This document shows, piece after piece, positions 4,460-44,118 of a stretch of 64,000 bases of DNA (within the stretch, counting starts at the first letter, position 1; each line of letters begins with the position of its first letter). This stretch comes from Propionimicrobium sp. PCR01-08-3 (GTDB lineage Bacteria > Actinomycetota > Actinomycetes > Propionibacteriales > Propionibacteriaceae): positions 2,497,482-2,561,481 of the forward strand of contig NZ_CP127390.1 of the NCBI RefSeq assembly GCF_030286045.1, in the 5' to 3' direction. Made by a program: the position numbers and the translations under genes. The notes below the pieces were generated by a model, which was given only the letters and a program-made list of their open reading frames with translations, ran no database searches and had not been told where the DNA came from.

Positions 4460-4621
<162 letters not shown>

Positions 4622-4700
4622 TTGGGGTGGGTGTTGCGGGTCATCGTTCACTTGGTGTGTCGGGTCATGGGTCTGATGCAGGAACAGGTGACAGTTCTGG

Positions 4701-5588: not shown

Positions 5589-5639
5589 GAGCGGGTAGAG
5601 CTGTAATGGCCTCTGGCGGGCCCGCGGCCGGCTGGGATG

Positions 5640-27115: not shown

Positions 27116-27203
27116 TGGGCGCCTGATCGTCGATCCACCGCAGCCTCGCTCGCGCTATGGCGTTTGCTCGTGTTGTGCCGAGAGCGAGAATCCACAACGC
27201 GAG

Positions 27204-27248
27204 CGTGGCCCGAGTGGGCGTCCACACCGGGAGCCAACTCGGGCCACG
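27204..27248. terminator. Hairpin between convergent genes
   Basis: A perfect 12-bp inverted repeat CGTGGCCCGAGT / ACTCGGGCCACG with a 21-nt loop lies between the ends of qor and the exporter gene. There is no T-run, which is common for actinobacterial terminators; bidirectional action is inferred. Confidence 0.55.
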
Positions 27249-27260
27249 AGAAGAAACCGA

Positions 27261-29060: not shown

Positions 29061-29120
29061 TGTTGTTTTGCCTCCAAGAACTACAAGAGTCACGGACGTC
29101 CCATCCGCGGCGATGAGACG

Positions 29121-29155
29121 ACTATACTCGTGTTTGCAGTCCATGCAAGATTGCA
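29121..29155 (-). promoter_or_regulatory. Exporter promoter with probable TetR operator
   Basis: On the minus strand TTGCAT (29148-29143), 16 nt, TATAGT (29126-29121) form a good sigma70-type promoter for the exporter. The -35 lies in the palindrome TTGCA-GTCCA-TGCAA (29134-29148), which shares its right arm with a second palindrome TGCAA-GA-TTGCA (29144-29155). Binding here would block RNA polymerase. Confidence 0.65.
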
Positions 29156-29573
29156 GATGATGAAGGCTGGCAATTTGTTTCATCTGGTTGTGACCCACCC
29201 GGACATTGTGCAAATGGCCATGCTCTCATCCACCCAGTCTTTAGCGGATTCCGAAGACCGGTTCCTCCCCGCGACCACACCTGGGCCACCAGGAAGCGGT
29301 ACCGGCGTAACCGGCGAGGCTGGCAAGACAGGCGGCTGGCAAGCGAATTCACCACCTGGCAACCACTGCCAAAGATATGGCAGCAATTCGGCCATGATCT
29401 AAAATCACCCACAGAGGCCGTGCGGATGGGCTCAGCCACGACAAGGACATTTTGGGCTCCTGACGCCATGGCGGACGCAAGTTCGCACTGCACGCGCAGG
29501 ATGCCTCTTGCTGAGCTACCCGCGCGATCTTCAAAGAGGTCGCAACAGATCTCGCAGAGAAAGGTATCCCGAT
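29156..29573. other. Intergenic region between exporter promoter and TetR gene
   Basis: 418 bp of lower GC content. It must contain the TetR gene promoter, but no convincing -35/-10 pair stands out. No supported gene or repeat is seen. Confidence 0.4.
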
Positions 29574-30233
29574 ATGCCCGGCACCCCTGCCGAGGAACCT
29601 GTCGTCTGGTCGCCGAACGAGGCCGGTGACGAATCGACGTGCGGCCTGCGCGAACAAAAGAAGCGCCAGACCAGGCGCGATCTGCATCACGCCGCACTGG
29701 TTCTCGTCCAAAAAGAGGGTTTGGACGCGGCGACCGTCGACCGCATTGCGGCCGCGGCAGGTGTCTCACCGAGGACCTTTTTCAACTACTTTCCCACCAA
29801 GGAAGCCGCCATCTTGGGGCTGCCGCCGAACGTGGGTGAGCGCATGAAGGCCCAACTGGAAGCCCGGCCCGCCGACGAGGACCCCTGGGAGTCGATCACG
29901 CTCATCGCGCGCGGGCTGTTCAGCCGGCAATTGGACGACTACCAGCTCCGCCAGGAGATCATCAACCGCTACCCGCAGCTCGTGCACAGCGTGCGAACCG
30001 TCACTCAGGATGCCAGGGCCACCGTGCGTGTCGTGCTCGCCGATCAACTGCGGGCCCAGGGGATGGACGCCGATGAGGCCGCACGCCGCGGCATCGTCTA
30101 TGCCGACCTGGCGATGACGTTCCTCACCTCGGCCATCCGCATCACCCAACTCGGCAGCACGAATTTGGACGATGCTTTCGCCGAGGTCCAGCAGATCGTC
30201 CGCGGCCTGGATCTCGGGGGCCCGGCCGAGTAG
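29574..30233 (+). CDS. TetR-family transcriptional regulator
   Basis: 219 residues. The N-terminal HTH (RQTRRDLHHAALVLVQKEGL, then DAATVDRIAAAAGVSPRTFFNYFPTKEAAILG) is canonical; the C-terminal ligand domain is diverse as usual. ATG 29574 gives an N-terminal extension of about 25 residues; a later start is possible. It is divergent from the DHA2 exporter and is the likely repressor acting at 29121-29155. Confidence 0.88.
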   Translation: MPGTPAEEPVVWSPNEAGDESTCGLREQKKRQTRRDLHHAALVLVQKEGLDAATVDRIAAAAGVSPRTFFNYFPTKEAAILGLPPNVGERMKAQLEARPADEDPWESITLIARGLFSRQLDDYQLRQEIINRYPQLVHSVRTVTQDARATVRVVLADQLRAQGMDADEAARRGIVYADLAMTFLTSAIRITQLGSTNLDDAFAEVQQIVRGLDLGGPAE

Positions 30234-30361
30234 CCGCCCGAGTCTTGGAGCCCTCAGGCCCCGGCCGAGGGATCGACGCGACAAACGATGACTGGATCGA
30301 ATGGACGGGAAGCCCCCCGACTTGACCGAGGGATCATTCCGGCCGAGGGAGCGACGAGTAG

Positions 30362-31240
30362 TCACCCCAACGTGGCCGACGGATCGACGGGGATGATGTC
30401 GCGCGCCTCGGTTTCCCTGTTCGGCACCGTGGTGGGTGATTCGAGATGCACTGCACCCGAGGGCAGCAGACCCGCCCCGCCGAACTCCGCCATCACCCGC
30501 AACTGGGCGATGACGTCCTCGCCGACGTGCGCGGCAGGCAGCGAGCGCCAGAACGAGAAGCCACCGACCTCAAGCAAGCGTTCGCGATCGAAGAGCACGC
30601 AGCCGCCGACCCATGCCACCTTGTACAGCTGCCATCCCCCGCGCGGAATCTCCAGGCCGGCCGCGAGATGCGCGAGGTTGGCGGCATTGTGCAGCCGCCA
30701 GCGCTCCCAGGCCGGACTGTCCTCGGTGACCAGCTCGGGCCCGCCCTCCCACAGCTCGAAGCTCCGGCACTCGTCCGGGCGGCGATCGTCCAGGTAGGAG
30801 AGGCCCTGCACGGCCGACCCGACGAAACCGCAGTCGGCTTCGTCCATCGCGGTCATCAACCGGACGAGCAGCCCGGGCTCGCACCACACATCGTCGTCCA
30901 GGAACAACACCCGGGGCGCGGTGGCCAGCCTGAGCAGAAAATCGCGTTGCTGGGCCATGCCCTGGCGCGGCAGATTTCGTTCCAGCCGGACGTCGCGGCC
31001 CTGGGCTTCCAAGAGGCGGACCATCGTTTCGACGGCAGGGTGCTCCCACACCGGTTGCTCGCTCTGATCGGCGACGATCACGCCGAAGTTCGCGTCCATT
31101 TGTGCCGCCAGGCCGCTGAGGGTGACGGCCAGCTCGGCGGCCCGCTGGTAGCTGGGGATCAGCACCTGCAATTCCTGCTGTGTGTCGGGAACCTCCGGCG
31201 CGACGGGCAGCCCCCACTGCCCCGACCATCGTCCGGCCAT
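30362..31240 (-). CDS. Glycosyltransferase family 2
   Basis: 292 residues. A GT-A fold with LQVLIPSYQRAAELAVTLSG, the metal-binding VLFLDDDVW (DxD) and VGGCVLFDRERLLEVGGF. It would transfer a sugar from a nucleotide donor to a surface glycan. The ATG overlaps the end of the HldE gene (GTGATG) and has GGAGG in front; it is the last gene of the minus-strand heptose operon. The acceptor and sugar are unknown. Confidence 0.85.
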   Translation of the reverse strand: MAGRWSGQWGLPVAPEVPDTQQELQVLIPSYQRAAELAVTLSGLAAQMDANFGVIVADQSEQPVWEHPAVETMVRLLEAQGRDVRLERNLPRQGMAQQRDFLLRLATAPRVLFLDDDVWCEPGLLVRLMTAMDEADCGFVGSAVQGLSYLDDRRPDECRSFELWEGGPELVTEDSPAWERWRLHNAANLAHLAAGLEIPRGGWQLYKVAWVGGCVLFDRERLLEVGGFSFWRSLPAAHVGEDVIAQLRVMAEFGGAGLLPSGAVHLESPTTVPNRETEARDIIPVDPSATLG

Positions 31241-32838
31241 CACTGTCCTCCTTGCTCGGCCAGGTGCGCAGGCACCAGCGCCGTCTGCGAACCGCGGATG
31301 CGCTCGACGACCTCGGTGGTCGAATGATCGGGCACATAGTCGAGGATCAGCACCGTCCCGCCATAGGCTTCGACCGCCGGCCTTTCGGCCAGGGTCTCGG
31401 CACTGTGGTCGCCGCCCTTCGCATACACGTCCGGACGCAGCCGCTGCACCACCTCGACCGCGGTATCGGACGCGAAGATGGTCACATGATCGACTCCGCC
31501 GAGCGCCGCCAGCACCGCCGCCCGGTCGGCTGCCGGGTTGATCGGCCTGCCGGGCCCCTTGAGCCGCCGCGCGGAGGCATCGTCGTTGATCGCGACGATC
31601 AGCACATCGCCCAGCTGGCGGGCCTGCTCCAGCAGTCTGGTGTGCCCGCGATGCAGCACGTCGAAGCAGCCGTTGGTCAGCACGATCCGCTTGCCCTCGG
31701 CCCGGTATTGCCGGACGCGGTGCTCCAGCAGGTCGAGGTCGACCACCTCACAGGCCAGCCCGCTGAGATACGCCTCGAGATCGGCCGTCGAGCAGACGGC
31801 GGTGCCCGGGCAGTGCACGGCGACATCGGCCGCCGATTGGGCGAGGTTGAGCGCGGCCGCTGCCGGCAGACCGGCTGCCAGCCCGACGCCCAGCGCGGCA
31901 ACGAAAGTGTCGCCCGCACCCGAAGCCTGCTTCTCGGTCACCGGACGCGCCCAGGTGCGGTGCTCGTCGTCGAGCGGGAAACCGGGTCCCGGCAGGGCGA
32001 CGGTGCCGTCGGCGTCCATCGTCACCACGACACACCCGGCCCCGGATGCGGCGAGCAAGTGCTCGCGGTGATCGTGCATGAATCCGGCGCGCCCATCTGA
32101 TCGTCCGGCCGCCAACGGGACGCCGCCCGATTGCCCGGCGTCCAGCATCCGGCGGGCCTCCTGCTCGTTGGGGGTGACCAGATCGGGATGCAGATCATGC
32201 CAGCGCTCGGGTTCGTGCGCGTCCACGATTACCAGCGGACCACGCCTGCTTGCGCTGTCTGCACTGTCTGCGCCGCCGGGCTGCAGGGTTTCGGTCAGTG
32301 CCTCCCGCACCGCGCCGTCGAGCACCCCAATGCCGTAGTCGCAGATGATCACAGCATCGATGTCGTCCAGTGCCGCTTCGATCCGGCCCGCGAGGGCCTG
32401 CCGGGCGGCCGGCGGCGGAGCATCGGCGATCGAGTCGACCCGGACGATGATCTGGTCACCGGCCAGCACGCGGCTCTTGGTGGTCGTCGTGGCGCCTTCG
32501 GCATCGATCAGATTCTCGCAGTCGATCCCTCCGGCACTCAACAACTCGCGCAGCCGGACGCCCTCCCGGTCGTCGCCGACGATCCCCCAAAAGCTGACCC
32601 GGGCGCCCAACCGGGCGGCGTTCAGGGCGGTGTTCGCGGCCCCGCCGGGCGCTGCCCGCTGATCGTCCAGTTCGACGACCGGCGCGGGTGCCTCCCGGCA
32701 GAGCCGCCGGGTGCTGCCGTGCCACCAGCCGTCCAACAGCGCGTCGCCCAGCACCGCGATGCGCGGACTCGCGGCGGCCAGCAGGCCCGGGGTGTCGGGA
32801 CCGGGGGCGGCCAGCCGGCTGAGCGGTGCCGCGGTCAT
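31240..32838 (-). CDS. hldE: Bifunctional heptose 7-phosphate kinase / heptose 1-phosphate adenylyltransferase (copy 1)
   Basis: 532 residues. Residues 1-370 are a PfkB/ribokinase-type kinase (GDALLDGWWHG, GGAANTALNAARLG, KQASGAGDTFVAALG with the catalytic Asp). Residues 385-532 are a nucleotidyltransferase with VLTNGCFDVLHRGHTRLLE (HxGH) and DVYAKGGDHS. HldE phosphorylates D-glycero-D-manno-heptose 7-P at C1 and, after GmhB action, attaches AMP. About 55 residues longer than Gram-negative HldE because of loops near residues 215-250 and 275-300. It overlaps the ALDH stop by ATGA. Confidence 0.9.
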   Translation of the reverse strand: MTAAPLSRLAAPGPDTPGLLAAASPRIAVLGDALLDGWWHGSTRRLCREAPAPVVELDDQRAAPGGAANTALNAARLGARVSFWGIVGDDREGVRLRELLSAGGIDCENLIDAEGATTTTKSRVLAGDQIIVRVDSIADAPPPAARQALAGRIEAALDDIDAVIICDYGIGVLDGAVREALTETLQPGGADSADSASRRGPLVIVDAHEPERWHDLHPDLVTPNEQEARRMLDAGQSGGVPLAAGRSDGRAGFMHDHREHLLAASGAGCVVVTMDADGTVALPGPGFPLDDEHRTWARPVTEKQASGAGDTFVAALGVGLAAGLPAAAALNLAQSAADVAVHCPGTAVCSTADLEAYLSGLACEVVDLDLLEHRVRQYRAEGKRIVLTNGCFDVLHRGHTRLLEQARQLGDVLIVAINDDASARRLKGPGRPINPAADRAAVLAALGGVDHVTIFASDTAVEVVQRLRPDVYAKGGDHSAETLAERPAVEAYGGTVLILDYVPDHSTTEVVERIRGSQTALVPAHLAEQGGQ

Positions 32839-34208
32839 GCGTTCTCACCGCCTTGCTCGATATGGACGACCTTCAGCTGGGTGAACTCGTCGAGCAGGCC
32901 GGGCCCGTAGCCGGCTCCGGCACCACTGTCCTTGCGGGGATGCGCCGATCCGCCGGGGGCGCCGCCGAAGACGGCGTTCACCTTCACGGTGCCCGCCGGG
33001 AGCTCGACGGCGGCCCGCTGGGCGTGGGCGAGATTGTGGGTCAACACGGTCGCCGCCAGACCGTAGCGTCCGGACGCCGCCTGGGCCAGGGCCTCGTCGA
33101 AGCTGTTCACGGTCATCACCGGCGCGACCGGGCCGAAGGTCTCTTCGCGCATCACTTCCATCTCGGCGGTGCAGCCGGCCAGCACAGTCGCCGGATAGTG
33201 CGCACCCGGCCCCTCGGGCAGCATGCCGCCGGCCAGCAGTTCGGCCCCGGCCGCGTTCGCTTCGTCCACCTGACGGGCCACGATCTCGCGCAGCCGCCGG
33301 TCGACCAGCGGGGCGACCGAGTGCTCGGCATTGCGCTGCCGGGCGCGGGCCGCCAGTTCGGAGCAGAATCGGGCGGCGATCTGGCGGTGCACGTAGATCC
33401 GTTCGACCGAGGTGCAGATCTGGCCGCTGTTCGCGAACGCGCCGACGGCCGCCTGCTCGGCAGCCCAGGCCGGATCGACATCGGCGTCCACAATCAGCGG
33501 ATCCTTGCCGCCGTTCTCCCGGATCACCTTGGCGCCGGTGGCCGCCGCTTGGCGAGCGATGGCCTGGCCGGTCGCGGTCGAACCGACGTGCGCGACGACA
33601 TCGGCGCCCGAGACCAGCGCCTCGCCGGTCATGGGGCCACCGTCGAGGGTGGTGAGAACGCCTATCGGGAAAACCGGTCCGAGAGCCTCGCCGAGCAGCC
33701 GTCCGAGATGCGGGCACCGTTCGCTGGGCTTGTGGATGACGACATTTCCGGTGGCCAGCGCGGCCCCGATCAGTCCGGCCGCGACAGCGACCGGGTCGTT
33801 CCACGGGGTGAGGACGACCGCCACCCCGAACGGTTCGTGGACGCTGTAGTCAATGGCTCCGAACTGGCCACACAGCTGTTCGCCGCGGTGCAACGGCCCC
33901 AGCTGGGCGTACTGGCGCAGCGTCGCCGCGCCCGCCGCTACACCGGCGGCGGCTTCGTCGAACGGCCGGCCGGTCTCCCGCTCGTTCATCCGGGCCAGCT
34001 CGGCGGTGTCGGCTTCGAGTGCGTCGGCGGCGGCCTCCAGCAGCTCGCCGCGGACGGCCGGTGCCATGCGGTGCCAATCCGGGTAGGCCCGGCGCGCCTG
34101 CGCCAGAGCCTCGTCGACTGCTTGGGGTGAGGTGGAAAGCACGGTACCGACCTCGGAGCCATCACGCGGATCGACGATAACGATGGATTGATCGGTTCGG
34201 GCAGTCAT
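32835..34208 (-). CDS. Aldehyde dehydrogenase family protein
   Basis: 457 residues. Active-site residues are present: Asn in VLTPWNDPVA, Lys in VIHKPSERCPH, Glu in IRENGGKDPL and the catalytic Cys in NSGQICTSVERIYVH; the late EETFGPVAPV is also conserved. It oxidises an aldehyde with NAD(P)+. ATG 34208 has GGAGGAG upstream. It sits inside a heptose operon, where an oxidised sugar or acceptor is conceivable, but the substrate cannot be told from sequence. Confidence 0.87.
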   Translation of the reverse strand: MTARTDQSIVIVDPRDGSEVGTVLSTSPQAVDEALAQARRAYPDWHRMAPAVRGELLEAAADALEADTAELARMNERETGRPFDEAAAGVAAGAATLRQYAQLGPLHRGEQLCGQFGAIDYSVHEPFGVAVVLTPWNDPVAVAAGLIGAALATGNVVIHKPSERCPHLGRLLGEALGPVFPIGVLTTLDGGPMTGEALVSGADVVAHVGSTATGQAIARQAAATGAKVIRENGGKDPLIVDADVDPAWAAEQAAVGAFANSGQICTSVERIYVHRQIAARFCSELAARARQRNAEHSVAPLVDRRLREIVARQVDEANAAGAELLAGGMLPEGPGAHYPATVLAGCTAEMEVMREETFGPVAPVMTVNSFDEALAQAASGRYGLAATVLTHNLAHAQRAAVELPAGTVKVNAVFGGAPGGSAHPRKDSGAGAGYGPGLLDEFTQLKVVHIEQGGENA

Positions 34209-34273
34209 AACAATCTCCTCCGTCTTGCTTGGTTCTGCTGTGTCGGTGAGCCTTGGGGTGTTGGGTGGTGACC

Positions 34274-35470
34274 ATGACGAACGTTCGAGAAGCGGTCGGG
34301 CCCCTCGGTCCGGTATTCGAAGATGTGCATCGCATCGCCGTGCTGCGCGGCGGCGGGCTGGGCGATCTGCTGTTCGCGCTGCCCGCAATGGAGGCACTCG
34401 CCGATGCCTACCCCGGCGCCGAGATCACCCTGCTGGGTACCCCGCTGCATCGGGAACTGTTCGAGGGGCGGCCGGGTCCGGTGCACGATGTCGAGGTGTT
34501 GCCCTTTGCGCAAGGCGTGCGGGACGGCCAGGTGGACGATGACGCCGTGGACGCCTTCTTCACCCGGATGCGAGCCCGCGAGTTCGATCTCGCGGTGCAG
34601 GTGCATGGCGGCGGACGCTTCTCGAATCCGTTCCTGCTGAATCTCGGCGCCCGGCACACCGTGGGCACCCGCACCGACGACGCGGCGCCGCTGGAACGCA
34701 ACCTGCCCTACCTCTACTACCAGCACGAGGTGCTGCGGGCGCTCGAGGTGGTGGGGCTGGCCGGTGCCACCACGGCGGGACTGACACCACGCATCCAGGT
34801 GATGGACGCGGACCGCGCCGCCGCCGCGGACGCGCTCACCGGCACCTCGCCTAACCGGCCGCGCCTGGTGCTGCATCCGGGTGCCACCGACGCCCGCCGC
34901 CGCTGGGCGTCCGAACGTTTCGCGCAGGTTGCCCGCTGGGCCGCCGAGGACGGTTTCGATGTCGACGTGATCGGTGATGCCTCCGAGCAGGAACTTGCCC
35001 GGCAAGTGGTGGCCGAGGCGACCGTGACCCAGGCGTCCGCCGAACCGCCGGCCGCCGGAGCGGGCACGATTCGTTCGCTGGCCGGACGGCTCAGCATCGG
35101 CGGCTTGGTGGGGTTGCTCGAGGCCGCCGATGTGATGGTGGGCAACGATTCGGGCCCCCGGCATCTGGCGCAGGCGGTCGGCACCGCGACGGTCGGCATC
35201 TACTGGGTGGGCAATGTGATCAACGCGGCCCCGCTCGGCCGGTGCCGGCACCGGATGCACATCGGCTGGGTGACCCACTGCCCGGTCTGCGGCGCCGACG
35301 TCACCCAGGTGGGCTGGACGGCCGAGAAATGCGACCACACCTTCCCGCTCAATGACGCCGTCGAGCCGCGTGATGTCTACGCCGATGTCCGCGCGCTGGC
35401 CGGCGCACCGGGTGAGACCGCCGCAGCGGGTGAGCAGGCCGATCACGGCCAGGATTCCTCCTGTTCGTGA
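34274..35470 (+). CDS. GT9 (heptosyltransferase-like) glycosyltransferase, copy 1
   Basis: 398 residues. The GT9 fold is shown by IAVLRGGGLGDLLFALPAME, LVLHPGATDARRRWASERFA and VGNDSGPRHLAQAVGTATVGIYWVG. The C-terminus carries a THCPVCG...KCDH cluster of three Cys and His that may bind zinc, known in an actinobacterial branch of GT9. It would transfer heptose from ADP-heptose. It is on the plus strand between two minus-strand operon blocks, and its end overlaps the 3' end of the SDR gene by 28 bp. ATG 34274 is chosen over a GTG/ATG seven codons upstream. Confidence 0.85.
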   Translation: MTNVREAVGPLGPVFEDVHRIAVLRGGGLGDLLFALPAMEALADAYPGAEITLLGTPLHRELFEGRPGPVHDVEVLPFAQGVRDGQVDDDAVDAFFTRMRAREFDLAVQVHGGGRFSNPFLLNLGARHTVGTRTDDAAPLERNLPYLYYQHEVLRALEVVGLAGATTAGLTPRIQVMDADRAAAADALTGTSPNRPRLVLHPGATDARRRWASERFAQVARWAAEDGFDVDVIGDASEQELARQVVAEATVTQASAEPPAAGAGTIRSLAGRLSIGGLVGLLEAADVMVGNDSGPRHLAQAVGTATVGIYWVGNVINAAPLGRCRHRMHIGWVTHCPVCGADVTQVGWTAEKCDHTFPLNDAVEPRDVYADVRALAGAPGETAAAGEQADHGQDSSCS

Positions 35471-36162
35471 CAGATCACCAGCTCCCGCACGGCGCAACCG
35501 GCCGGCTGGTCGAGCGCGAACAGCACCGCCCGGGCGACATTGGCGGGGTCGTTCAGCGTCGAATTGTCGGCCGGACGATACTGCTCGGTGCGGCCGTCGA
35601 AGAAGTGGGTGTCCATGCCGCCGGGAATCAGGGTGGTGACCCCGATCTCGCCGCGGGTTTCGGCGATGAGTGACCGGGAGAATCCCAGCACCCCGAATTT
35701 GGACGCGCAGTAGGCGGTGGCGTCGCTGACCGCGCTCAGCGCCAGTGTGGACGCCACGGTCACCACATGACCATGCGATTTCTGTAGGTGCGGCAAGGCC
35801 GCCCGGACGACCCGGACGGTGCCCAGCAGGTTCACGTTGATCACGTTCTCCCACTTCTCGGCGGGGATCTCGTCCAGTCGTCCGCAAGCGTCGGTGCCGG
35901 CCGCGGTGACCACTGCGTCCAGGCCACCGAGTTTGTCGACCGCGGCGGCCACGCCCTGCTCGACGGCCTGCCGGTCGGCAACGTCGACGCGGTAGAAGAC
36001 CGCCGACACCAGGCTGGGCGGTTCCAGGTCGAAGACGATGGGTGTGCCGCCGGCGTCGGCCACGGCGTGCGCGAGCGCGGCACCCAAACCGGACGATCCT
36101 CCGGTGATCAGGACGCGGCCGGGGCCTGAGGTGCCGTTGCCGGTATCGGTTGTGACAGTCAT
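35443..36162 (-). CDS. Short-chain dehydrogenase/reductase
   Basis: 239 residues. The classical SDR fold has GGSSGLGAALAHAVADAGG (TGxxxGxG type), NVNLLGTVRV, catalytic Ser in VASTLALSA and Y-C-A-S-K (YxxxK). It is a short, classical SDR and not an extended-type HldD epimerase. AGGAGG precedes ATG 36162, which lies 8 nt after the second hldE gene. It may reduce or oxidise a sugar or acceptor of the pathway. Confidence 0.87.
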   Translation of the reverse strand: MTVTTDTGNGTSGPGRVLITGGSSGLGAALAHAVADAGGTPIVFDLEPPSLVSAVFYRVDVADRQAVEQGVAAAVDKLGGLDAVVTAAGTDACGRLDEIPAEKWENVINVNLLGTVRVVRAALPHLQKSHGHVVTVASTLALSAVSDATAYCASKFGVLGFSRSLIAETRGEIGVTTLIPGGMDTHFFDGRTEQYRPADNSTLNDPANVARAVLFALDQPAGCAVRELVICHEQEESWP

Positions 36163-36170
36163 GATTCCTC

Positions 36171-37571
36171 CTATTCGATCGAGGTGGATTCGATCAGGCC
36201 GGCGGCATGTTTGAGGGAGTCCGCCAGGGCCGTGGTCGAGCGGCCGGGATGGAACGGCACGATTTGCACGCTGCCGCCCCAGCCGGCCATCAGTTCGTGC
36301 TCGGGCAGAAGTTCGGCGATGTAGTCGCCGCCCTTCACCCAGATGTCGGGACGCAGCCTCGCCAAGACGGTGAGCGGAGTGTCCTCGCCGAAGATCGCGA
36401 CCGCGTCCACACAATCCAAGCCGAGCAACAGCTCGGCACGGTCGTCCTGGCTCATCAGCGGCCGGGACAAGCCCTTGAGGCGGCGCACCGACTCGTCCGA
36501 ATTCAGGCAGACGATCAGCGCATCGCCCTTGGCGCGCGCCGCGCGCAGGGTACGCAGGTGGCCTGCGTGCAGCAGATCGAAGCAGCCGCCCGTGGCGACC
36601 ACGGTGCCGCCGGCAGCGTGCACCAGCCGCACCACCTCCGCCGCGTCCGGCAGGCCGGGTGCCTGGTCTGTTCGCGCCGGGTTCGCCGTGTTGTTCACCG
36701 GGGGCAGGGCCGCTACCCCACCGCCGGCGAGAAAGTCACCGGTGACGGCGATCGCTTCGGCGACGGCCGCGGACGGCCGGTCGGTATCAGGCAACGCGAT
36801 CGCCAGGGCCGCGGTGAACCGGTCGCCGGCACCACAGACGTCGACATCCGGCAGCGGTGCCGCCGGTATCTGCCGGCCGTCGGATACGGTTTGCAGCCAG
36901 GCTCCCTCGCTGCCGAGCGTGATCACCACGTTCTTCGCCTGCCAGTTGGCCATCAGCCGCGAAGCCGCCCGCGCCACGCCGTGTTTGTCGTCGGTTTCCA
37001 CACCCGCGAAGCGCAACGCCTCGCCACGGTTGGGGGTGACCGCGCTCACCCCGGGCACCGGCGCGGCACCCTTGAGATGCGGATCCCAGACCACCGGCAC
37101 TCGTTTGGCCAGCTCGGCGATCAGCCTGCGCAGAGCGCGGCAGTTCAGCAGTCCTCTGCCGTAGTCCGCGACGACAATCACGTCGGCCTCCTGGATGGCG
37201 GCCAGCATCGGCCAGGTCGCGTTCGGCACCGGGGCCGGCGCGCAGCCCTCGTCCACCCTCGCCGAAACGCTGCCGTCTTGCAGAATGCGGGTCTTGATGG
37301 GAGTGGGCGCTCCGGAAGGCCCGGCCACCAGGTTGATGCCGGTCAGCTGTTTGCGCAGTTCCCAGGAGGCCTGGTCGTCGGACAGCACAGTCACCAAGGT
37401 GACGTCATGCCCGTCGTCGGCGAGCATCCGGGCGACCAGCCCGGCGCCGCCGGCCCGGCTGCGGGAGCGCTCGACATCGATCACCGGGGCGGACGAGTCG
37501 GGCACGCAGCGGGTGCAGGAGCCCTCGATGTCGCGGTCGAGCAGCACGTCTCCGATCACAGTGATGCCCAT
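36171..37571 (-). CDS. hldE2: Bifunctional heptose 7-phosphate kinase / heptose 1-phosphate nucleotidyltransferase (copy 2)
   Basis: 466 residues. The PfkB-type kinase (GDVLLDRDIEGS, RAGGAGLVARMLADDGHDV, VCGAGDRFTAALA) occupies residues 1-300 and the nucleotidyltransferase (VATGGCFDLLHAGHLRTL with HxGH, IWVKGGDYI) residues 325-466. Both active sites look intact. It differs strongly from copy 1, and the substrate pocket around the GGA motif differs, so a different heptose or anomer is possible. It overlaps the GmhA gene by 16 nt and precedes the SDR gene. Confidence 0.87.
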   Translation of the reverse strand: MGITVIGDVLLDRDIEGSCTRCVPDSSAPVIDVERSRSRAGGAGLVARMLADDGHDVTLVTVLSDDQASWELRKQLTGINLVAGPSGAPTPIKTRILQDGSVSARVDEGCAPAPVPNATWPMLAAIQEADVIVVADYGRGLLNCRALRRLIAELAKRVPVVWDPHLKGAAPVPGVSAVTPNRGEALRFAGVETDDKHGVARAASRLMANWQAKNVVITLGSEGAWLQTVSDGRQIPAAPLPDVDVCGAGDRFTAALAIALPDTDRPSAAVAEAIAVTGDFLAGGGVAALPPVNNTANPARTDQAPGLPDAAEVVRLVHAAGGTVVATGGCFDLLHAGHLRTLRAARAKGDALIVCLNSDESVRRLKGLSRPLMSQDDRAELLLGLDCVDAVAIFGEDTPLTVLARLRPDIWVKGGDYIAELLPEHELMAGWGGSVQIVPFHPGRSTTALADSLKHAAGLIESTSIE

Positions 37572-38218
37572 AGCGGCCCCCGTTCCGATCCGTCGCGGAG
37601 TCCGGCGATGGACGCGTCGTTACGCAGCTCGGCGATGGTCGCGTCGAACACCCGGCAGATGGCGTGCACGGCGACCAACTGGCATTCCTGCGCGTTCGGG
37701 GAGTCGCCGCCGATGGCGATGTGATCGTCCACCGCCCGGCACAACGAATTGGGTGCCGCCCCGGTCAACGCCCAGGTCGCGAGCCTCTGTTCGCGGCCGG
37801 CCTGAGCGGCGGCGAGCAGATTCGTGCTCTCACCGCTGGTGCTCAACAGCAGCAACACATCACCCGGCCTGCCGTGGCCGCGCACCTGGCGGGCGAAGAC
37901 CTGGTCGAAGCCGTAGTCGTTGCCGACCGCTGTCAGAGTGGAGGTGTCGGCGTGCAGGGAGATCGCGGAGAAGGGTTCGCGTTCGCCGTCGAAACGGCCG
38001 ACGATCTCGGCGGTCAGGTGCTGCGCCTCGGCGGCCGAGCCGCCGTTGCCGGCCACCAGCAGGCGTTGGCCAGCGGCCAGCCGGTGCGCGAGCGTCATTC
38101 CCCAGCGGACGAGTGTGTCGCGCGACCGGGCGAGATCGGTCATCGAGGTGGCCACCCCGTTCAGGTGGTCGTCCACCAAGGTCGCGGCGTCGCTTCGGCG
38201 GGTACTGATCGCGGTCAT
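37556..38218 (-). CDS. gmhA: Sedoheptulose 7-phosphate isomerase
   Basis: 220 residues. SIS domain with VAGNGGSAAEAQHLTAEIVG, TAVGNDYGFDQVFARQV, LSTSGESTN and AQECQLVAVHAICRVF, the metal-binding Gln/His region of GmhA. It converts sedoheptulose 7-P to D-glycero-D-manno-heptose 7-P, the entry to ADP-heptose. The ATG overlaps the upstream GT4 stop (ATGA), so the longer frame to 38557 is not used. Confidence 0.92.
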   Translation of the reverse strand: MTAISTRRSDAATLVDDHLNGVATSMTDLARSRDTLVRWGMTLAHRLAAGQRLLVAGNGGSAAEAQHLTAEIVGRFDGEREPFSAISLHADTSTLTAVGNDYGFDQVFARQVRGHGRPGDVLLLLSTSGESTNLLAAAQAGREQRLATWALTGAAPNSLCRAVDDHIAIGGDSPNAQECQLVAVHAICRVFDATIAELRNDASIAGLRDGSERGPLWASL

Positions 38219-39450
38219 GCCTGCACCTCCATCGCCGGAACACGCGAACGCAGCACCGCCTGGTAGGCGGCTTCCGACAAGGCGGCGACGTGGTCCCAGG
38301 AGTAGCCGGCCTCGACCCGGCGTCTGCCGGCCCGGCCCATCCGCGAGCGCAACTTTGGGTCGTCCAGCAGCCGGCGCACGGCATCGGCGAGCGCGGCATC
38401 GTCGCGCGGCGGAATATGCAGTCCGGTCAGGTTGTCGGCCACGGAATCCTGCAGGCCGCCGACGGCCGCCACCACGACGGGCACCCCGCAGGCCATCGCT
38501 TCGAGCGGCACGATGCCGAAGGGCTCGTACCACGGAGTGCACAGCACCGCAGCGCAACTGCGCAGGAAGGCGGGCATCGCGGTGCGGGGCAGCTGGCCGC
38601 GGAAGATGGTCCGGTCGGCAACCCCCAGCTCATTGGCCAGCCCGCGCAGCCGGGTGGCCTCCGGGTCGCGGTCGAGCCCATCGGCCCCGGCCGCCCCTCC
38701 GACGATCTGCAGTTCGACATCGTCGCGTCCGGCGTCCTTCAGCCGGGCGAGAGCCCGGATCGCCAGATCGACGCCCTTGCGCGGCACCAGCCGTCCGATG
38801 ACCGCGATCCTGGAGCGTCCGCCGATGGCCTCTGGTGGTCCGGACGCGGTGAACAGATCGAGGTCGACTCCGCAGGGCGCCATCGAGATCTGCGACGGGT
38901 CGGCGCCCAGAGCGGTCAGTTCGCGCACCTCATCGGGGCAGGTGGCGATTATGCCGTCGGCGCGGCGGGCCACACCCGGCTCCAGCCAGCGGCGGGAGCG
39001 CGGACTGGTGTCGGCGGCGCCCTGATAGCGCCGTTTCACCGAGCCCAGCGCGTGAAAGGTCTGCAACACCGGTGGTGCCGGGATTGTCTGGGCGGCCGCG
39101 TCGAGCGAGGCGAGCCCCGACATCCAGAAGTGCGCATGCACCACGTCCGGCGGGTCGAGCAGCCAGTCGGCTGCCATCCGACGGGCCATCTCGGGCATTA
39201 AGGGCAACAGTTCGTCCTTCGGCAAGGCCTCGGCGGGTCCGGCGGCGACGTGGACGACCTCGAACCCGGCCCGCGTGCTGACCCGTTCGGGCAGGTTCGG
39301 GTCGTCGCGGCGGGTATAGACGGTGAGTTCGTGGCCGCGTCTGGCAAGGGCGGACGACAGCTCTGCAACGTGCACGTTCTGGCCGCCGGCATCCACTCCG
39401 CCGATGGCGGCGAGCGGGCTGGCGTGTTCGGAAACCATGGCGATTCTCAC
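38215..39450 (-). CDS. Glycosyltransferase family 4
   Basis: 411 residues. GT-B fold with GGQNVHVAELSSALARRGH at the acceptor side, donor-site AVIGRLVPRKGVDLAIRAL and the EX7E motif in CTPWYEPFGIVPLEAMACG. Sequence type resembles MshA/sucrose-synthase-like GT4 enzymes. The GTG at 39450 has GGGAG upstream and overlaps the preceding gene's stop. It likely builds the same glycan as the neighbouring transferases. Confidence 0.88.
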   Translation of the reverse strand: MRIAMVSEHASPLAAIGGVDAGGQNVHVAELSSALARRGHELTVYTRRDDPNLPERVSTRAGFEVVHVAAGPAEALPKDELLPLMPEMARRMAADWLLDPPDVVHAHFWMSGLASLDAAAQTIPAPPVLQTFHALGSVKRRYQGAADTSPRSRRWLEPGVARRADGIIATCPDEVRELTALGADPSQISMAPCGVDLDLFTASGPPEAIGGRSRIAVIGRLVPRKGVDLAIRALARLKDAGRDDVELQIVGGAAGADGLDRDPEATRLRGLANELGVADRTIFRGQLPRTAMPAFLRSCAAVLCTPWYEPFGIVPLEAMACGVPVVVAAVGGLQDSVADNLTGLHIPPRDDAALADAVRRLLDDPKLRSRMGRAGRRRVEAGYSWDHVAALSEAAYQAVLRSRVPAMEVQA

Positions 39451-40442
39451 AGTCGTGCTCCCTTCTCGCTGCGGCGCCGGCTGGTAACCGCGGCATCGAG
39501 TGTTTCGTCCCAATCGGTGAGGAACCGGGCGAGGTTGTATCGGTCGAGCGCTGCTTCACGCGCCACCCGGCCGCGCCGGGCGGCCTCTTCGGGATCGTCC
39601 AGCAGCCGGCCGGCGGCCCGGACCAGTTCGTCGATGTCGGTGCTGATGGCGCCCGCTTCGGGCGGCACCGCGCGGGCGGCCTCGGTGGCGTCCAATACCA
39701 CGACGGGCATCGCCAGGTGCATCGCCTCCAGCAACCCGAGGCCGAGTGACGTCCACCGCAGCGGATGCACGTACACCCGGCAACGGGCGAGTTCGGCGTG
39801 CAGCTCGCTGCTCGGCAGATCACCGCGGACGCGCAGCCTGCCGTCAGGGAGGTTCAGTGCCTCGGCCAGGGCGTCGGTCTTCATGCCGAACGCCTCGAGC
39901 GGCCCAGCGGCCGCGAAGGCCGGTAACAGATCGGTTCCGGTGACCCGCCACCGGCGGACCGGCTCGTTGACGACCAGGCCGAGGCTCGCGCGCTCGCCGG
40001 TGTATTGCGCACCCGGGTCGACGATGCCGTGCTCGATGACCCGCACCGGCGCGCGGCCGTTGTCCCAGAACAGCCGGTTGAAGTGCGTGACGTGCACGAT
40101 GGGTATCTCGCTTTGGTCGGCGAGGGGATGCACCACGTCGGGGGTGGGTCCTTTGGGGGTGTTGTGTTCGAGGTAGACGGCGGGCAGATCGCGGCCCGGA
40201 CGCCGTCCGGTGAGCCGCTCGCAGGCGTCCAATTCTTCGGGGCGCTGCAGCACGACGGCGTCGATATCGGTATCGCGAAGCTCGTCGGGAGAAATCTCGA
40301 TGGCGTTCGCGGGCCAGTCGCGTCCGCCTCTGCCAAGCCCCCAGGCGTCTCGGCGGGGCGTGCTGGGCAGCAGATAGTCATGCCCGCCGCGGACGAACGA
40401 ATTCATCCAGCCGCCGTGCACGTGCCAGACCAGCACTCTCAT
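39447..40442 (-). CDS. Glycosyltransferase family 4/1
   Basis: 331 residues. MRVLVWHVHGGWMNSFVRGG opens the protein; the C-terminal donor domain shows VYVHPLRWTSLGLGLLEAMH LAMPVV, a shortened EX7E region. It is compact for GT-B enzymes. AGGAGG precedes the ATG. A 44-bp gap separates it from the upstream GT9, the only such gap in this part of the operon besides the inverted GT9. Confidence 0.82.
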   Translation of the reverse strand: MRVLVWHVHGGWMNSFVRGGHDYLLPSTPRRDAWGLGRGGRDWPANAIEISPDELRDTDIDAVVLQRPEELDACERLTGRRPGRDLPAVYLEHNTPKGPTPDVVHPLADQSEIPIVHVTHFNRLFWDNGRAPVRVIEHGIVDPGAQYTGERASLGLVVNEPVRRWRVTGTDLLPAFAAAGPLEAFGMKTDALAEALNLPDGRLRVRGDLPSSELHAELARCRVYVHPLRWTSLGLGLLEAMHLAMPVVVLDATEAARAVPPEAGAISTDIDELVRAAGRLLDDPEEAARRGRVAREAALDRYNLARFLTDWDETLDAAVTSRRRSEKGARL

Positions 40443-40486
40443 CCATGCCTCCTAAGATCAGGAAGCGCAGTGATGCACTTCTTCTT

Positions 40487-41491
40487 CTACTGAAGCAGTG
40501 GGCTGAGTGCTGCTACTACATCCTTGGGGGTGGTTCTGCTCAGGCACGGGTGCCCGGGAATGGGGCAGATGCGGGCGCGGGAATCCTTGCAGGGGGCATC
40601 CTGGTCGCCGAGCAGGACGCAGGTGACGCCGTAGGGCGCCCACTTGATCGCCGGAACAACCGGCGAGAAAAGGCTCACCACGGGGGTGCCGACGGCCGCG
40701 GCGAGATGGGCCGGGCCGGTGTTGCCGACCACGACCGCGTCGGCGCCGGCCAGCACCCCGGCGAGTTCGGGCAGGGTCAATCGTCCGCCGAAGTCTTCGC
40801 CCCAGCGGCCCGCAACGGCCGCGGTCAACGCCTTCTCGCCCGCGGCTCCGGTCACCAGGACGCGGCGACCGGCCTCGGCAAGCAGCCGGACGAGTTCGGC
40901 GTGATGGTCTGCCGGCCAGGTGCGGGCGGGTGCGTCCGCGCCCGGATGCACCACCAGGAAGGGCCCGCTGCCGGTCAGCCGGTGCACGTCCGGGGGCGGT
41001 TTGACGGCAAGCCGGCCGTCATCGCGCTCGGGCAGCGCAAAGCCGGCAGCGGCGGCGATCGCCAGGGCCCGTTCGGGTTCCGGCTGGTTCTCCGCGAGAT
41101 CTTCTCCCGGACGCAGCCTGACATCCAACAACGACCCCGCGTAGTCGACCGACGCCCCGGTGATCTTCGAAACACCGGCAAGGCGCAGCAGCAGCGCGAG
41201 CGGCAGCGGCGACTGATGGAAGGAGGTCAGGATCACCGCCTCGTCGAAGCCGCGCAGGGCCGAGACGAGTTGTTCGATATCGGCCGGTTCGACGGAAGGT
41301 GCGGCGGCGACGATCCAGGGGCTGTTCCAGACGATCACGTCGCTCACACCGGGCAGCATCCGGGCGGCGGGCGCACCCTGGGTGGAGCACAAGACGGTGA
41401 CCTCGCCGGTGGCCGCGACGGCGCGGATCGCGGGGCCGGCCAGCAGCACGTCGCCGAGCGAGTCGAGCCGGGCCACCAGCACCCGGCTCAT
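40487..41491 (-). CDS. GT9 (heptosyltransferase-like) glycosyltransferase, copy 2
   Basis: 334 residues. VLVARLDSLGDVLLAGPAIR, LVVHPGADAPARTWPADHHA, VVVGNTGPAHLAAAVGTPVV and SLFSPVVPAIKWAPYG are GT9 hallmarks. A Cys-rich end (CKDSRARICPIPGHPC) may bind metal. The ATG overlaps the stop of gmhB (ATGA), so a direct functional link with ADP-heptose supply is likely. Confidence 0.88.
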   Translation of the reverse strand: MSRVLVARLDSLGDVLLAGPAIRAVAATGEVTVLCSTQGAPAARMLPGVSDVIVWNSPWIVAAAPSVEPADIEQLVSALRGFDEAVILTSFHQSPLPLALLLRLAGVSKITGASVDYAGSLLDVRLRPGEDLAENQPEPERALAIAAAAGFALPERDDGRLAVKPPPDVHRLTGSGPFLVVHPGADAPARTWPADHHAELVRLLAEAGRRVLVTGAAGEKALTAAVAGRWGEDFGGRLTLPELAGVLAGADAVVVGNTGPAHLAAAVGTPVVSLFSPVVPAIKWAPYGVTCVLLGDQDAPCKDSRARICPIPGHPCLSRTTPKDVVAALSPLLQ

Positions 41492-42090
41492 CGTGCTGCC
41501 TCCCCGGTGTCTGCCCGCTCGGTATCCGCCCAGGCCGGGCCGCTCCAGGCTCCGCTTCGGATCAGCTCTGCGGCCTCGGCGAGGTCTCGGGCGACATGGC
41601 GGCAGGCGCCGACCTCCGCCGCACGGGTGACCGGGGTCGGGACGAGAATCCCGGACGCCCCCGCCCGGTGGGCCGCCTGGATGTCGGAGCCGATGTCGCC
41701 GATCACCACCGTGGTTGCGGGCGGCACTTCGAGCCGTCGGCAGGCCTCCAGCACCATTCCCGGGGCGGGCTTGCGGCAGTCACAACCATCGGTGGGCAGG
41801 TGCGGGCAGGCGAGTATCACGTCGAAGGCGCCGAGCAGTTCGGTGAGCCGGGCGGTGACGGCCTCGTACTGGGCGGTCGTGATCAGGCCGCGTCCGATTG
41901 CCGACTGATTGGAGACGATGCCCACCAGCACTCCTGCCGCCCGCAGCTCGTCGAGCAGCGCGCGGGCACCCGGCATCGGGTCGACGAGCGCGGGGTCGCC
42001 GTTATAGGGCACATCGGCGATAAGCGTGCCGTCCCGGTCGAAGAGCACGGCGCGCGGCAGCCGGGCGGTGCTTTCGGACGATCGGGGCAT
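41488..42090 (-). CDS. gmhB: D-glycero-D-manno-heptose 1,7-bisphosphate 7-phosphatase
   Basis: 200 residues. HAD-IIIA phosphatase: AVLFDRDGTLIADVPYNGDP (nucleophile Asp), GIVSNQSAIGRGL, the zinc loop CPHLPTDGCDCRKPAPGM (Cys-x-His...Cys-x-Cys) and VVIGDIGSDIQAA. It removes the 7-phosphate between the two HldE steps. A TATAGT -10 box ends 6 nt before the ATG, so it opens the long minus-strand operon as a leaderless gene; the divergent GT9 starts 75 bp away. Confidence 0.92.
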   Translation of the reverse strand: MPRSSESTARLPRAVLFDRDGTLIADVPYNGDPALVDPMPGARALLDELRAAGVLVGIVSNQSAIGRGLITTAQYEAVTARLTELLGAFDVILACPHLPTDGCDCRKPAPGMVLEACRRLEVPPATTVVIGDIGSDIQAAHRAGASGILVPTPVTRAAEVGACRHVARDLAEAAELIRSGAWSGPAWADTERADTGEAAR

Positions 42091-42164
42091 GCGCTCACTA
42101 TAGTCACCAGGTACCGGGCGCCGATCTGGACGGAGCCTCGTACCTGTTGCGGCTAGGAGACACC

Positions 42165-43124
42165 ATGCGTGAGGCCCGCCTGGGATCGGCGTCCGCTCCC
42201 GAGCTCGTGGTGCTGCGCGCGCTCAAACTCGGTGATCTGCTGGTCGCGGTGCCCGCCCTGCGTGCTCTGCGCCGGGCGTTTCCCGAGCATCGGATCCGCT
42301 ACCTCGGGCCCGCCTGGCTGGAGCCCATCGTCGATCTGGTCGGCGGCATCGAGTTGTTCGATACTCCCGGCCTGGAAGCCCCGATCGCATTCGGCGGCGA
42401 TGTCGATATCGCGGTGAATCTGCACGGTCGCGGCCCGCAGAGCAACCGGCGGCTGGACGCGTTGAACCCGCACCGCCGGATCGGGCACCACCAAACCGAC
42501 GCCGGTGGGCCGGTCTGGCAGGGCCCGGAATGGCTGGCCGACATCCACGAACGCGAACGCTGGACGAGGATGCTGCGCTGGCACGGCATCGACGCCGACC
42601 CGATGGAGCTATATCTCGATCCGCCGCCGGTCGCGTCCGTATACCCGGGGGCGGTCATCGTCCATCCCGGCGCGGCCTATGCGAGCAGGCAGTGGCCGGT
42701 GGAACGCTTCGCCGAACTGGCTCGCGCTGTGGCGGACGCGGGACATGAGGTGGTGCTCACCGGCAGCGCGTCCGAGCGGGAGCGGGCACTGACGGTTGCG
42801 CGGGCGACCGGGCTGGCGGACGAAGCCGTGCTCGCCGGCAGCTGCGATCTGGCACAGATGGCCGCCCTGGTTCACGAGGCCGCCGCCGTGATCAGCGCGG
42901 ACACCGGAGCGGCGCACTTGGCGTCGGCCTACCGGACGCCCTCGGTCGTGCTGTTCGGTCCCGCCGCCCCCGAGCAGTGGGGTCCGCCGCCCGGCCCGCA
43001 CCGGGTGCTGACCGACGCCCGCCGGCGCCGCGGCGATGTCTTCGCCGATCAACCCGATCCCGCCCTGCTGGCCGTGGGGCCCGGCGACGTGCTCGCCGCC
43101 CTGGCCGATCTCGAGGTTCTGTGA
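42165..43124 (+). CDS. GT9 (heptosyltransferase-like) glycosyltransferase, copy 3
   Basis: 319 residues. LVVLRALKLGDLLVAVPALR, AVIVHPGAAYASRQWPVERF and VISADTGAAHLASAYRTPSVVLFG place it in GT9. ATG 42165 has AGGAG 5 nt upstream; the six-codon extension is not needed. It is divergent from gmhB, and thus controlled from the same intergenic region. Nothing recognisable follows in the 132 bp before the vapC gene. Confidence 0.87.
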   Translation: MREARLGSASAPELVVLRALKLGDLLVAVPALRALRRAFPEHRIRYLGPAWLEPIVDLVGGIELFDTPGLEAPIAFGGDVDIAVNLHGRGPQSNRRLDALNPHRRIGHHQTDAGGPVWQGPEWLADIHERERWTRMLRWHGIDADPMELYLDPPPVASVYPGAVIVHPGAAYASRQWPVERFAELARAVADAGHEVVLTGSASERERALTVARATGLADEAVLAGSCDLAQMAALVHEAAAVISADTGAAHLASAYRTPSVVLFGPAAPEQWGPPPGPHRVLTDARRRRGDVFADQPDPALLAVGPGDVLAALADLEVL

Positions 43125-43256
43125 TCAGCGTTCTGCCGGTATCCGGGGAGCAGGCGCGCTGAGGATCGTCCGCCAGAACGGCAGAAATGCCCGCGCCCAG
43201 GGCGTGATCGCTACACCCGAGGTATCTACCAGAAGAGTTTCTTGCAGAGCTTTTGG

Positions 43257-43685
43257 TTACACCGTGATGACTCGGAGCTCTCCCAATTCAGCGAGAGGAT
43301 CGTAGTCGTGGTCCTGGGTATAGACGGCAAGCCCGTTCGCGAGCGCGACCGCCGCTATCCAAAGATCATTCACATTGACTCGGCGTCCGCTCTCCGCTAG
43401 CTGGACTCTCATACGTGCCCAATGGGCAGCAGCAGTTGCGTCCACCTGGAGCGGCACGAGCGCCGAGACGCGCGTCAGGGTCGCGAGGCGGCGCGAACGA
43501 ATGGTCTGGTCGGACGCCGCGAGCACCCCGGCCTCAAGTTCGGCAAGTGTGATGACCGACACATAACCCTCATCAGGAAGCAACGACACATCGATTCGCC
43601 GCCCGGATTCCTGCGCAATGAACACGCTCGTGTCGAGCAAACCCCGTTCGCCGTGGTCTGGCGACGAGATCGAGTCGGCGCTCAT
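43257..43685 (-). CDS. vapC: VapC-type PIN-domain ribonuclease toxin
   Basis: 142 residues. The four acidic PIN residues are visible: Asp in GLLDTSVFIAQE, Glu in VITLAELEAGV, Asp in VNVNDLWIAA and Asp in YTQDHDYDPL. VapC toxins cut tRNA or rRNA. The start ATGA overlaps the antitoxin stop. All key residues are intact, so the pair may be active, unlike the broken pairs at 8 and 20 kb. Confidence 0.88.
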   Translation of the reverse strand: MSADSISSPDHGERGLLDTSVFIAQESGRRIDVSLLPDEGYVSVITLAELEAGVLAASDQTIRSRRLATLTRVSALVPLQVDATAAAHWARMRVQLAESGRRVNVNDLWIAAVALANGLAVYTQDHDYDPLAELGELRVITV

Positions 43686-43942
43686 GTGAGTGGCCCGAGA
43701 TCGTCCGTGGTCTCACCAGCAAGCACCGAAAGGTCATGTGTGAGCCCAGGATCCGATTGGAAGGACAAGACCAGCTCGGCGAGCTCGCTGCGGGAGAAGA
43801 ACTCGGGACGCGCCTGCCGCACCGGGGCAAGCTCCACGGACGGACGACCGCGAACCGCTACCGTGATGCGTTCGCCGTCGCTCACGCGGCGCAGAACATC
43901 GCTTGTGTGATTGCGCAGGTCACGAGCAGCAATGATGGTCAT
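43682..43942 (-). CDS. vapB: Phd/YefM-type VapB antitoxin
   Basis: 86 residues. MTIIAARDLRNHTSDVLRRV then SDGERITVAVRGRPSVELAPV is the Phd/YefM DNA-binding half; the C-terminal half wraps the toxin. A TACGCT -10 box ends 7 nt before the ATG (leaderless). Confidence 0.87.
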   Translation of the reverse strand: MTIIAARDLRNHTSDVLRRVSDGERITVAVRGRPSVELAPVRQARPEFFSRSELAELVLSFQSDPGLTHDLSVLAGETTDDLGPLT

Positions 43943-44118
43943 GTGCGCAAGCGTAGCAGTTTACGCACACACGTCGGGCGGGGCAGCCACGCAAGCTTCC
44001 CGCTCGTCGAGTTGATGTCCACGGCCACCGATGGCGTTCTACGGCAAAGCCGTGAGCACAACGCAGTCAGGCGAACGATCAACGAAGCGACACGCAGCAG
44101 TGATTCTCCCGCGGGCCA

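Follow-up and report, generated by a model that had tools for sequence, protein, structure and literature searches.

We analysed a 64,000-nucleotide stretch (hereafter the window; positions 2497482-2561481 of contig 1) of the 3.29 Mb genome of Propionimicrobium sp. PCR01-08-3, which carried a cluster of genes related to heptose activation and transfer. Twelve closely packed genes, taken as open reading frames (ORFs) from the sequence, occupied positions 30362-43124 (Table 1). GT2, HldE1, ALDH, SDR, HldE2, GmhA, GT4a, GT4b, GT9b, and GmhB were on the minus strand, and GT9a and GT9c were on the plus strand. The original prediction for this DNA had named GmhA, GmhB, two HldE kinase-nucleotidyltransferase fusions, and six glycosyltransferases, three of them of the GT9 type, and all of these were present as open frames. 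The short-chain dehydrogenase (SDR) and the aldehyde dehydrogenase (ALDH) were cluster members that it had omitted. Taken together, the results suggested that the cluster belonged to a heptose system conserved in actinobacteria, that it had probably been imported, and that its two HldE proteins posed a puzzle.

The gene names are to be read at the family level, as most of the proteins scored below the NCBIfam equivalog cut-offs for heptose families; the exception was the HldE1 nucleotidyltransferase domain, which narrowly passed its domain model (183.3 vs 181.5 bits). At this level, a nucleoside diphosphate (NDP)-heptose enzyme set (GmhA, heptose kinase, GmhB, and nucleotidyltransferase) was encoded together. 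The glycosyltransferases scored at best 59-84 bits with the WaaC/WaaF models (cut-offs 135-185), and GT4a reached 241 bits with the MshA model TIGR03449, under its cut-off of 462.5. The predicted structure of GT4b (pLDDT 90.6) matched TarM, PimB', GlgM, and BshA in Foldseek, which are generic GT4 neighbours. The three GT9 genes were the only PF01075 matches in the whole genome.

Table 1. Features of the locus in window coordinates; the last column gives model matches, the number of the best 80 related loci with a homologue, and remarks
Feature	Positions	Strand	Part	Evidence and remarks
Inserted block, ~17.0 kb relative to same-genus genome G005	27115..44128			Also holds MFS, TetR, and PIN genes
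GT2-type glycosyltransferase	30362..31243	-	accessory	PF00535, 46.9 bits; 18/80
HldE1, canonical PfkB kinase-nucleotidyltransferase fusion	31240..32838	-	accessory	NF008454, E 2.9e-98; 54/80; GGAAN at 65-69, TNG at 388-390, C-terminal YVPDHSTT at 501-508
ALDH	32835..34208	-	accessory	PF00171, E 2.1e-109; 40/80; start codon inferred
GT9a, heptosyltransferase-like	34253..35470	+	accessory	PF01075, 89 bits; 49/80; ORF opens at TTG, first ATG at 34274
SDR, classical	35443..36162	-	core	PF00106, E 8e-39; 72/80; start inferred
HldE2, diverged kinase-nucleotidyltransferase fusion	36171..37571	-	core	NF008454, E 2.1e-75; 76/80; Leu45 and Gly328 replace Asn; STTR5 motif FHPGRSTT at 440-447
GmhA, sedoheptulose 7-phosphate isomerase	37556..38218	-	core	TIGR00441, 142 bits, E 1.5e-41; 76/80
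GT4a, MshA-like glycosyltransferase	38215..39450	-	core	PF00534, 145 bits; 79/80; start inferred, ORF opens at 39513
GT4b, short GT4-type glycosyltransferase	39447..40442	-	core	PF13692, 45 bits
GT9b, heptosyltransferase-like	40487..41491	-	core	PF01075, 88 bits; 79/80
GmhB, heptose 1,7-bisphosphate 7-phosphatase	41488..42090	-	core	Beta type by score; 75/80
Divergent promoter region GmhB/GT9c	42091..42164			Lacks the GTTT-N15/16-GGG(A/T)A motif common in relatives
GT9c, heptosyltransferase-like	42147..43124	+	core	PF01075, 93 bits; 62/80; ORF opens at TTG 42147, first ATG at 42165

Conservation of the core and insertion into the host genome

The core, in the order GmhB-GT9b-GT4b-GT4a-GmhA-HldE2-SDR-GT9c, was complete or nearly complete in 16 of the 22 loci of a first survey, with GT4a/GT4b displaced by a few kb in some of the 16. 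The GT4b alignment was used as a marker to scan a genome collection, where at least 581 relatives were confirmed and the best 80 loci were kept; these lean towards the window, and incomplete contigs were included in the counts. The 80 loci came mostly from Arthrobacter, Pseudarthrobacter, Paenarthrobacter, and Microbacteriaceae, together with Brevibacterium, Pseudonocardiaceae, Streptomyces, and Streptosporangiaceae, and each core gene except GT9c was found in 72-80 of them. Since the same gene order recurred in dozens of other genomes, chance assembly of the cluster was excluded. Thus, the eight-gene core with a single HldE of the HldE2 type is conserved and widespread across Actinomycetota.

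The idea that the cluster was a peculiarity of one Gram-positive bacterium had to be dropped. HldE-type matches were found in 92 of 394 genomes of a class sample (E <= 1e-30) and in 37 of 296 genomes of a phylum sample (E <= 1e-25); both counts include the host genome, the top few candidates per genome were scored (the top three in the class sample), and some matches were single-domain. The co-occurrence of both HldE types in actinobacteria was confirmed by the best 80 loci. All 54 loci bearing HldE1, mostly from Arthrobacter and its relatives, also had HldE2. In the class sample, an HldE1-type match of more than 320 bits occurred in 22 other genomes, accompanied by a clear HldE2-type match in 20. 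The two exceptions were G512, with a weaker partial HldE2-type match (41%, 137 bits), and G670 (63% complete), with none; the search for HldE2 was made in 27 of the other 91 genomes with a match, namely these 22 and five more. The HldE1 module was located elsewhere in the genome, or divergently beside the core, in several genomes. HldE1 looks like an add-on to the HldE2 core.

The inserted block was seen in comparison with G005. Between the quinone oxidoreductase and P-type ATPase genes, the distance from one alignment end to the other was about 0.19 kb in G005 and about 17.0 kb in the window, and the two genes were likewise adjacent in G004, another genome of the genus. The GC content of the cluster was 0.704 vs 0.639 for the rest of the window, with single cluster genes at 0.68-0.72. 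HldE searches in seven same-genus and 13 same-family genomes gave weak partial matches or none, and GmhA had no match in G005 and G004 and a marginal one in the same-genus genome G002. Most simply, the cluster in the window is an imported block. The sister-genome searches, the insertion, and the GC content led us to reject the view that it was a typical gene set of the host genus. Joining six core proteins gave a tree (quick method, 96 rows) in which a long branch (0.54) led to the window, within the Micrococcales-type clusters.

The remaining genes of the block were located at its ends, namely an MFS transporter and a divergent TetR regulator on the left (27261-30233) and a PIN-domain gene (PF01850), possibly the toxin of a toxin-antitoxin pair, on the right (43257-43685). 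Their GC content was host-like (0.64-0.65 for MFS/TetR). The repeats found between 26900 and 44300 were short and imperfect, with no convincing flanking pair that could mark the ends of a mobile element, and no tRNA gene was located beside the insert. The sole tRNA of the window, a tRNA-Pro at 4460, was followed by two transposase-like ORFs (4460-6907; judged visually from their initial residues). In G512 (loci L214 and L240), HldE1 was near GT9a, GT9c, and GT2 and a GmhA match was far off at 3.90 Mb, perhaps representing a dispersed version of the system.

Two HldE subfamilies

In a tree of 101 HldE rows (thinned at 68% identity, quick method), HldE1 proper (34 rows, SH-aLRT support 99) and HldE2 (64 rows, support 100) were separate clades with three other HldE proteins between them. 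Residues were counted in 185 sequences, 110 HldE2 and 75 HldE1-like (outgroup rows included), after dropping duplicates, matches with fewer than 350 aligned residues, and frames shorter than 380 or longer than 620 amino acids. The catalytic residues scored, namely the GAGD Asp, the two His of HxGH, and the LKG Lys, were kept in 110/110 HldE2 and in 73-75 of the 75 HldE1-like rows. The sugar pockets of HldE2 were changed: the Asn of GGAAN was Leu in 109/110 sequences, the Asn of TNG was Gly in 110/110, and the Thr after GAGD was Arg in 96/110. We take the GGAAN Asn to be a sugar contact in ribokinases. The TNG Asn maps to Asn30 of Burkholderia pseudomallei HldC (BpHldC), by alignment and by an offset in numbering with which Asn59 and Lys69 agree as well, and PMC7993394 places Asn30 in the docked heptose 1-phosphate site. 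The paired Asn losses in both pockets suggest a different way of holding the sugar in HldE2.

The original prediction had proposed that two divergent HldE proteins serve two activated heptoses or two anomers. Two diverged subfamilies were indeed found, and they would fit two activated heptoses. The anomers found no support and were rejected, since both kinases were of the PfkB/HldE type and GmhB scored as the beta-heptose type (NF006506, 114.7 bits) rather than the alpha type (NF050049, 53.5 bits).

It has been reported that the STTR5 motif, (F/L)xxGRSTT, is the signature of heptose nucleotidyltransferases that accept CTP and UTP as well (PMC11461863, PMC11573728), and that it is not strictly necessary for promiscuity (PMC11461863). 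The HldE2 of the window matched the strict motif and its HldE1 did not (Table 1). The prediction of two donors that follows from this motif is fair for the window pair and weaker as a general rule.

Sigma factor genes and a promoter motif in related loci

A sigma factor gene of the SigB/F/G family was found in 47 of 102 related loci, and in 40 of them it was located within 400 bp of a cluster gene. In 55 of 99 loci, the 200 bp upstream of GmhB contained the motif GTTT-N-GGG(A/T)A. The spacer was allowed to vary from 12 to 18 and was 16 (45 loci) or 15 (10 loci) in all 55, with widely varying letters. For ten other cluster genes, which were examined in 30 to 117 loci apiece, the same motif was counted only 0-2 times per gene. 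It was also found before GT9a (11/61) and before an epimerase gene near some single-HldE operons (7/17), and the matches on the reverse strand before GT9c (34/88) represented the same divergent region from the opposite side. The pattern GTT(T)-N12-18-GGG(T/A)A was enriched before GmhB (50/76; shuffles mean 2.4, maximum 7); the shuffles were mononucleotide, so the comparison gene by gene was the better control. The motif and the sigma gene occurred together in 46 of 103 loci and neither was present in 41, with 9 and 7 discordant. On a Streptomyces plasmid (p65_CHABEC), the core operon was located among GAF-ANTAR, PP2C phosphatase, STAS, CBS, and CsbD genes.

Several side observations concerned these promoter regions. 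Seven loci (L034, L035, L036, L037, L088, L089, and L158) had single-HldE operons with a carbamoyltransferase of the NodU type and an epimerase-like gene, and in all seven GTTT-N-GGGTA preceded the epimerase gene by no more than 400 bp. In the window, an imperfect inverted repeat between GmhB and GT9c (arms 42106-42114 and 42140-42148, by eye) is possibly a replacement operator at the place where relatives had the putative SigB/F-type promoter. No sigma-70 consensus promoters were found at 29500-43800 (shuffles mean 0.6).

The search of the open-licence literature returned no description of the twin-HldE cluster, its modules, or the sigma link. The core chemistry was probably already described, and the twin-HldE arrangement and its putative control, a SigB/F-type promoter with a cluster-linked sigma gene in relatives, are apparently new. 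Two reports were too thin to use: PMC5563000 mentions one salt-induced heptosyltransferase-like gene in Frankia under salt stress, and PMC12113805 mentions a GT9 gene in one Cryobacterium strain.

Proposed pathway, alternatives, and known systems

From the gene content, its conservation, the insertion relative to sister genomes, the clades, and the motifs, we infer the following reactions, donors, regulation, direction of transfer, and acceptor. GmhA would isomerise sedoheptulose 7-phosphate, the HldE2 kinase would add the 1-phosphate, GmhB would take off the 7-phosphate, and the HldE2 nucleotidyltransferase with its STTR5 motif would make ADP-heptose and probably CDP- or UDP-heptose too. GT9b, GT9c, GT4a, and GT4b would build an oligosaccharide. 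The accessory module (HldE1, ALDH, GT9a, and GT2) would share GmhA and GmhB and yield a second donor pool for additional residues, most likely consisting of ADP-heptose alone. It is most likely that the block was imported and that its host belongs to a different order from the Arthrobacter-type relatives. In many of these relatives, transcription would probably depend on the SigB/F-class sigma factor encoded beside the cluster, and therefore a glycan of stress or stationary phase was a likelier product than a housekeeping polymer of the wall. We consider this whole explanation, an imported conserved heptose cassette with two donor pools and SigB/F-type control in many relatives, to be slightly favoured (a probability of roughly 0.55).

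The original prediction had the heptose going to a glycan other than lipopolysaccharide (LPS). The part of it that stood was a predicted beta-heptose nucleotide pathway with its own glycosyltransferases, and the final product is still inference; overall, the earlier reading was partly supported. No match in the genome exceeded the cut-off for HldD, the epimerase of the LPS inner-core heptose system (best 126 vs 274.6 bits), so the sugar would probably stay in the D-glycero form. A carbamoyltransferase accompanied the operon in 21 of 102 loci (Pfam), and some forms of the product may therefore be carbamoylated. We saw neither a flippase nor a polymerase, ligase, or ABC exporter among the cluster genes. 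For the acceptor or product, our guess would be an oligosaccharide linked to a lipid or to inositol. The prediction had also considered that the kinases might prefer ribokinase-type or other sugars. This was unlikely by the model scores, which were 60/57 bits with the ribokinase model vs 187/138 bits with the heptose kinase domain model.

A number of results counted against the proposed explanation. The reactions, product, and acceptor are predictions from sequence comparison. The strict STTR5 motif was scarce even in HldE2 (14/110, vs 0/70 in HldE1, outgroup rows left out), and the Arg at its position 5 was not exclusive to HldE2 (99/110, and also 34/70 HldE1). By these counts, the motif was rejected as a clean separator of HldE1 and HldE2 beyond the window pair. 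The representative sigma gene reached 196 bits with TIGR02980, under the cut-off of 234. A first, textbook-like promoter pattern, GNTT-N12-18-GGGTAY, was not enriched (6/76; shuffles mean 3.6, maximum 10) when the enriched pattern was tried alongside it. Tree-based pairing of the 86 rows with enough upstream sequence gave 8 independent pairs, in which the motif was unchanged in 6.8 on average; an independent association of sigma gene and motif was thus rejected, as it counts as about one evolutionary event. The window itself had no strict motif at the cluster (the sole match in its 64 kb was at 57337) and no sigma gene beside it, and the three SigBFG matches in the genome were all outside the window (best 130 bits vs the cut-off of 234). 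Stress control therefore need not hold in this host. No close donor was known, as the best identity of the joined core proteins was 64%; given this and the long branch, the donor itself was not sampled. Finally, G512 from the same family had HldE1, and an old gain with losses in sister genomes is a possible alternative to import.

Of the rival explanations, the one that survived best was that both HldE proteins are redundant, making the same ADP-heptose, with the second copy serving dosage or a separate assembly complex. It would agree with the catalytic residues kept in both types, with the Arg at motif position 5 that many HldE1 proteins share, and with the HldE2-type protein standing alone in many genomes. 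However, the two clades with other HldE proteins between them and the subfamily-specific changes in both sugar pockets did not favour simple redundancy, which we regard as a minority possibility.

It was less probable that HldE2 acts on a different sugar phosphate, such as another heptose isomer or a hexose, made by the GmhA of its operon. The joint loss of the GGAAN and TNG Asn residues, the latter at the docked heptose 1-phosphate site of BpHldC, could indicate another sugar. On the other hand, HldE2 was the sole HldE beside GmhA and GmhB in most genomes, and in the account of PMC11573728 all characterised heptose enzymes could make ADP-heptose.

The weakest rival was a secreted small molecule (a septacidin-like heptoside) with the MFS and TetR proteins as exporter and sensor: these genes shared the 17-kb insert (MFS, PF07690, 192 bits), MFS homologues were found near HldE1 modules in L086 (42%, 353 bits), L231 (39%), and L224 (33%) and weaker ones (25-28%) in L035, L036, and L228, and the absence from the cluster of any flippase, polymerase, or ABC exporter would suit it, but their host-like GC content unlike that of the cluster, the presence of MFS and TetR homologues in just 1 of the 80 best loci, and six glycosyltransferases with no scaffold genes made it improbable.

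Extending the preferred explanation of an imported cassette with two donor pools, we tentatively suggest that a SigB/F-class sigma factor encoded at the cluster edge governs the making of a stress-induced heptose glycan in many Actinomycetota, that the twin-HldE form uses ADP-heptose from HldE1 and CDP-/UDP-heptose from HldE2, and that the window shows the cassette in full, though lacking its stress promoter, in a host from a different order. This joint claim is rather doubtful. The physiological roles of CDP- and UDP-heptose have been described as elusive, and the genes next to heptose enzymes were suggested as a place to look (PMC11573728). If the claim were true, these sugars would gain a dedicated biosynthetic use, and heptose glycans would be common and inducible in Gram-positive soil bacteria. 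ADP-D-glycero-D-manno-heptose and its bisphosphate precursor are published activators of host ALPK1 (PMC11461863, PMC11573728), and the producers may then be sources of ALPK1 agonists outside Gram-negatives. The cluster is a concrete place to look, with two diverged HldE proteins, matched glycosyltransferases, and a candidate sigma factor and promoter in culturable Arthrobacter.

Among known systems, the Gram-negative ADP-heptose/LPS core pathway (HldE, GmhA, GmhB, and GT9) had the same four activities by family, and HldE1 kept the canonical GGAAN and TNG motifs known from the structures of HldA (4e84) and HldC (5x9q). In contrast to that pathway, the window had no HldD above the cut-off, two HldE proteins, and glycosyltransferases distant from WaaC/WaaF. 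Part of the system was also observed in a Gram-negative, as a Paraburkholderia sprentiae plasmid (pl1WSM5005; L241, 6140-14004) carried a heptose-like operon of consecutive HAD-IIIA hydrolase, waaF, carbamoyltransferase, GT9, and GT4b-like genes; unlike the window, this stretch had no annotated GmhA or HldE, and its GT4b identity was 37%. Nucleotidyltransferases with STTR5 make ADP-, CDP-, and UDP-heptose (Tang et al. 2024 Science, via PMC11461863 and PMC11573728). HldE2 carried their exact motif and is predicted to share this activity, whereas HldE1 from the same cluster lacked it. Actinobacteria are also said to have tridomain NDP-heptose synthetases with isomerase, kinase, and nucleotidyltransferase domains, going by the title of an article by Tang Y. 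et al. in Sci China Life Sci in 2022. In the window, GmhA and HldE2 differed from such a single chain in being separate genes that overlap by 16 bp at their junction in different frames, and a second didomain HldE1 was present with its own module. The domains and their order were nevertheless the same. Among 120 related loci, of which 17 lacked the pair, GmhA and HldE2 were not in one frame in 99 and formed one open frame in 4 of the 103 that could be scored (L218, L219, L224, and L228). These four fusions link HldE2 to the tridomain synthetases of actinobacteria.

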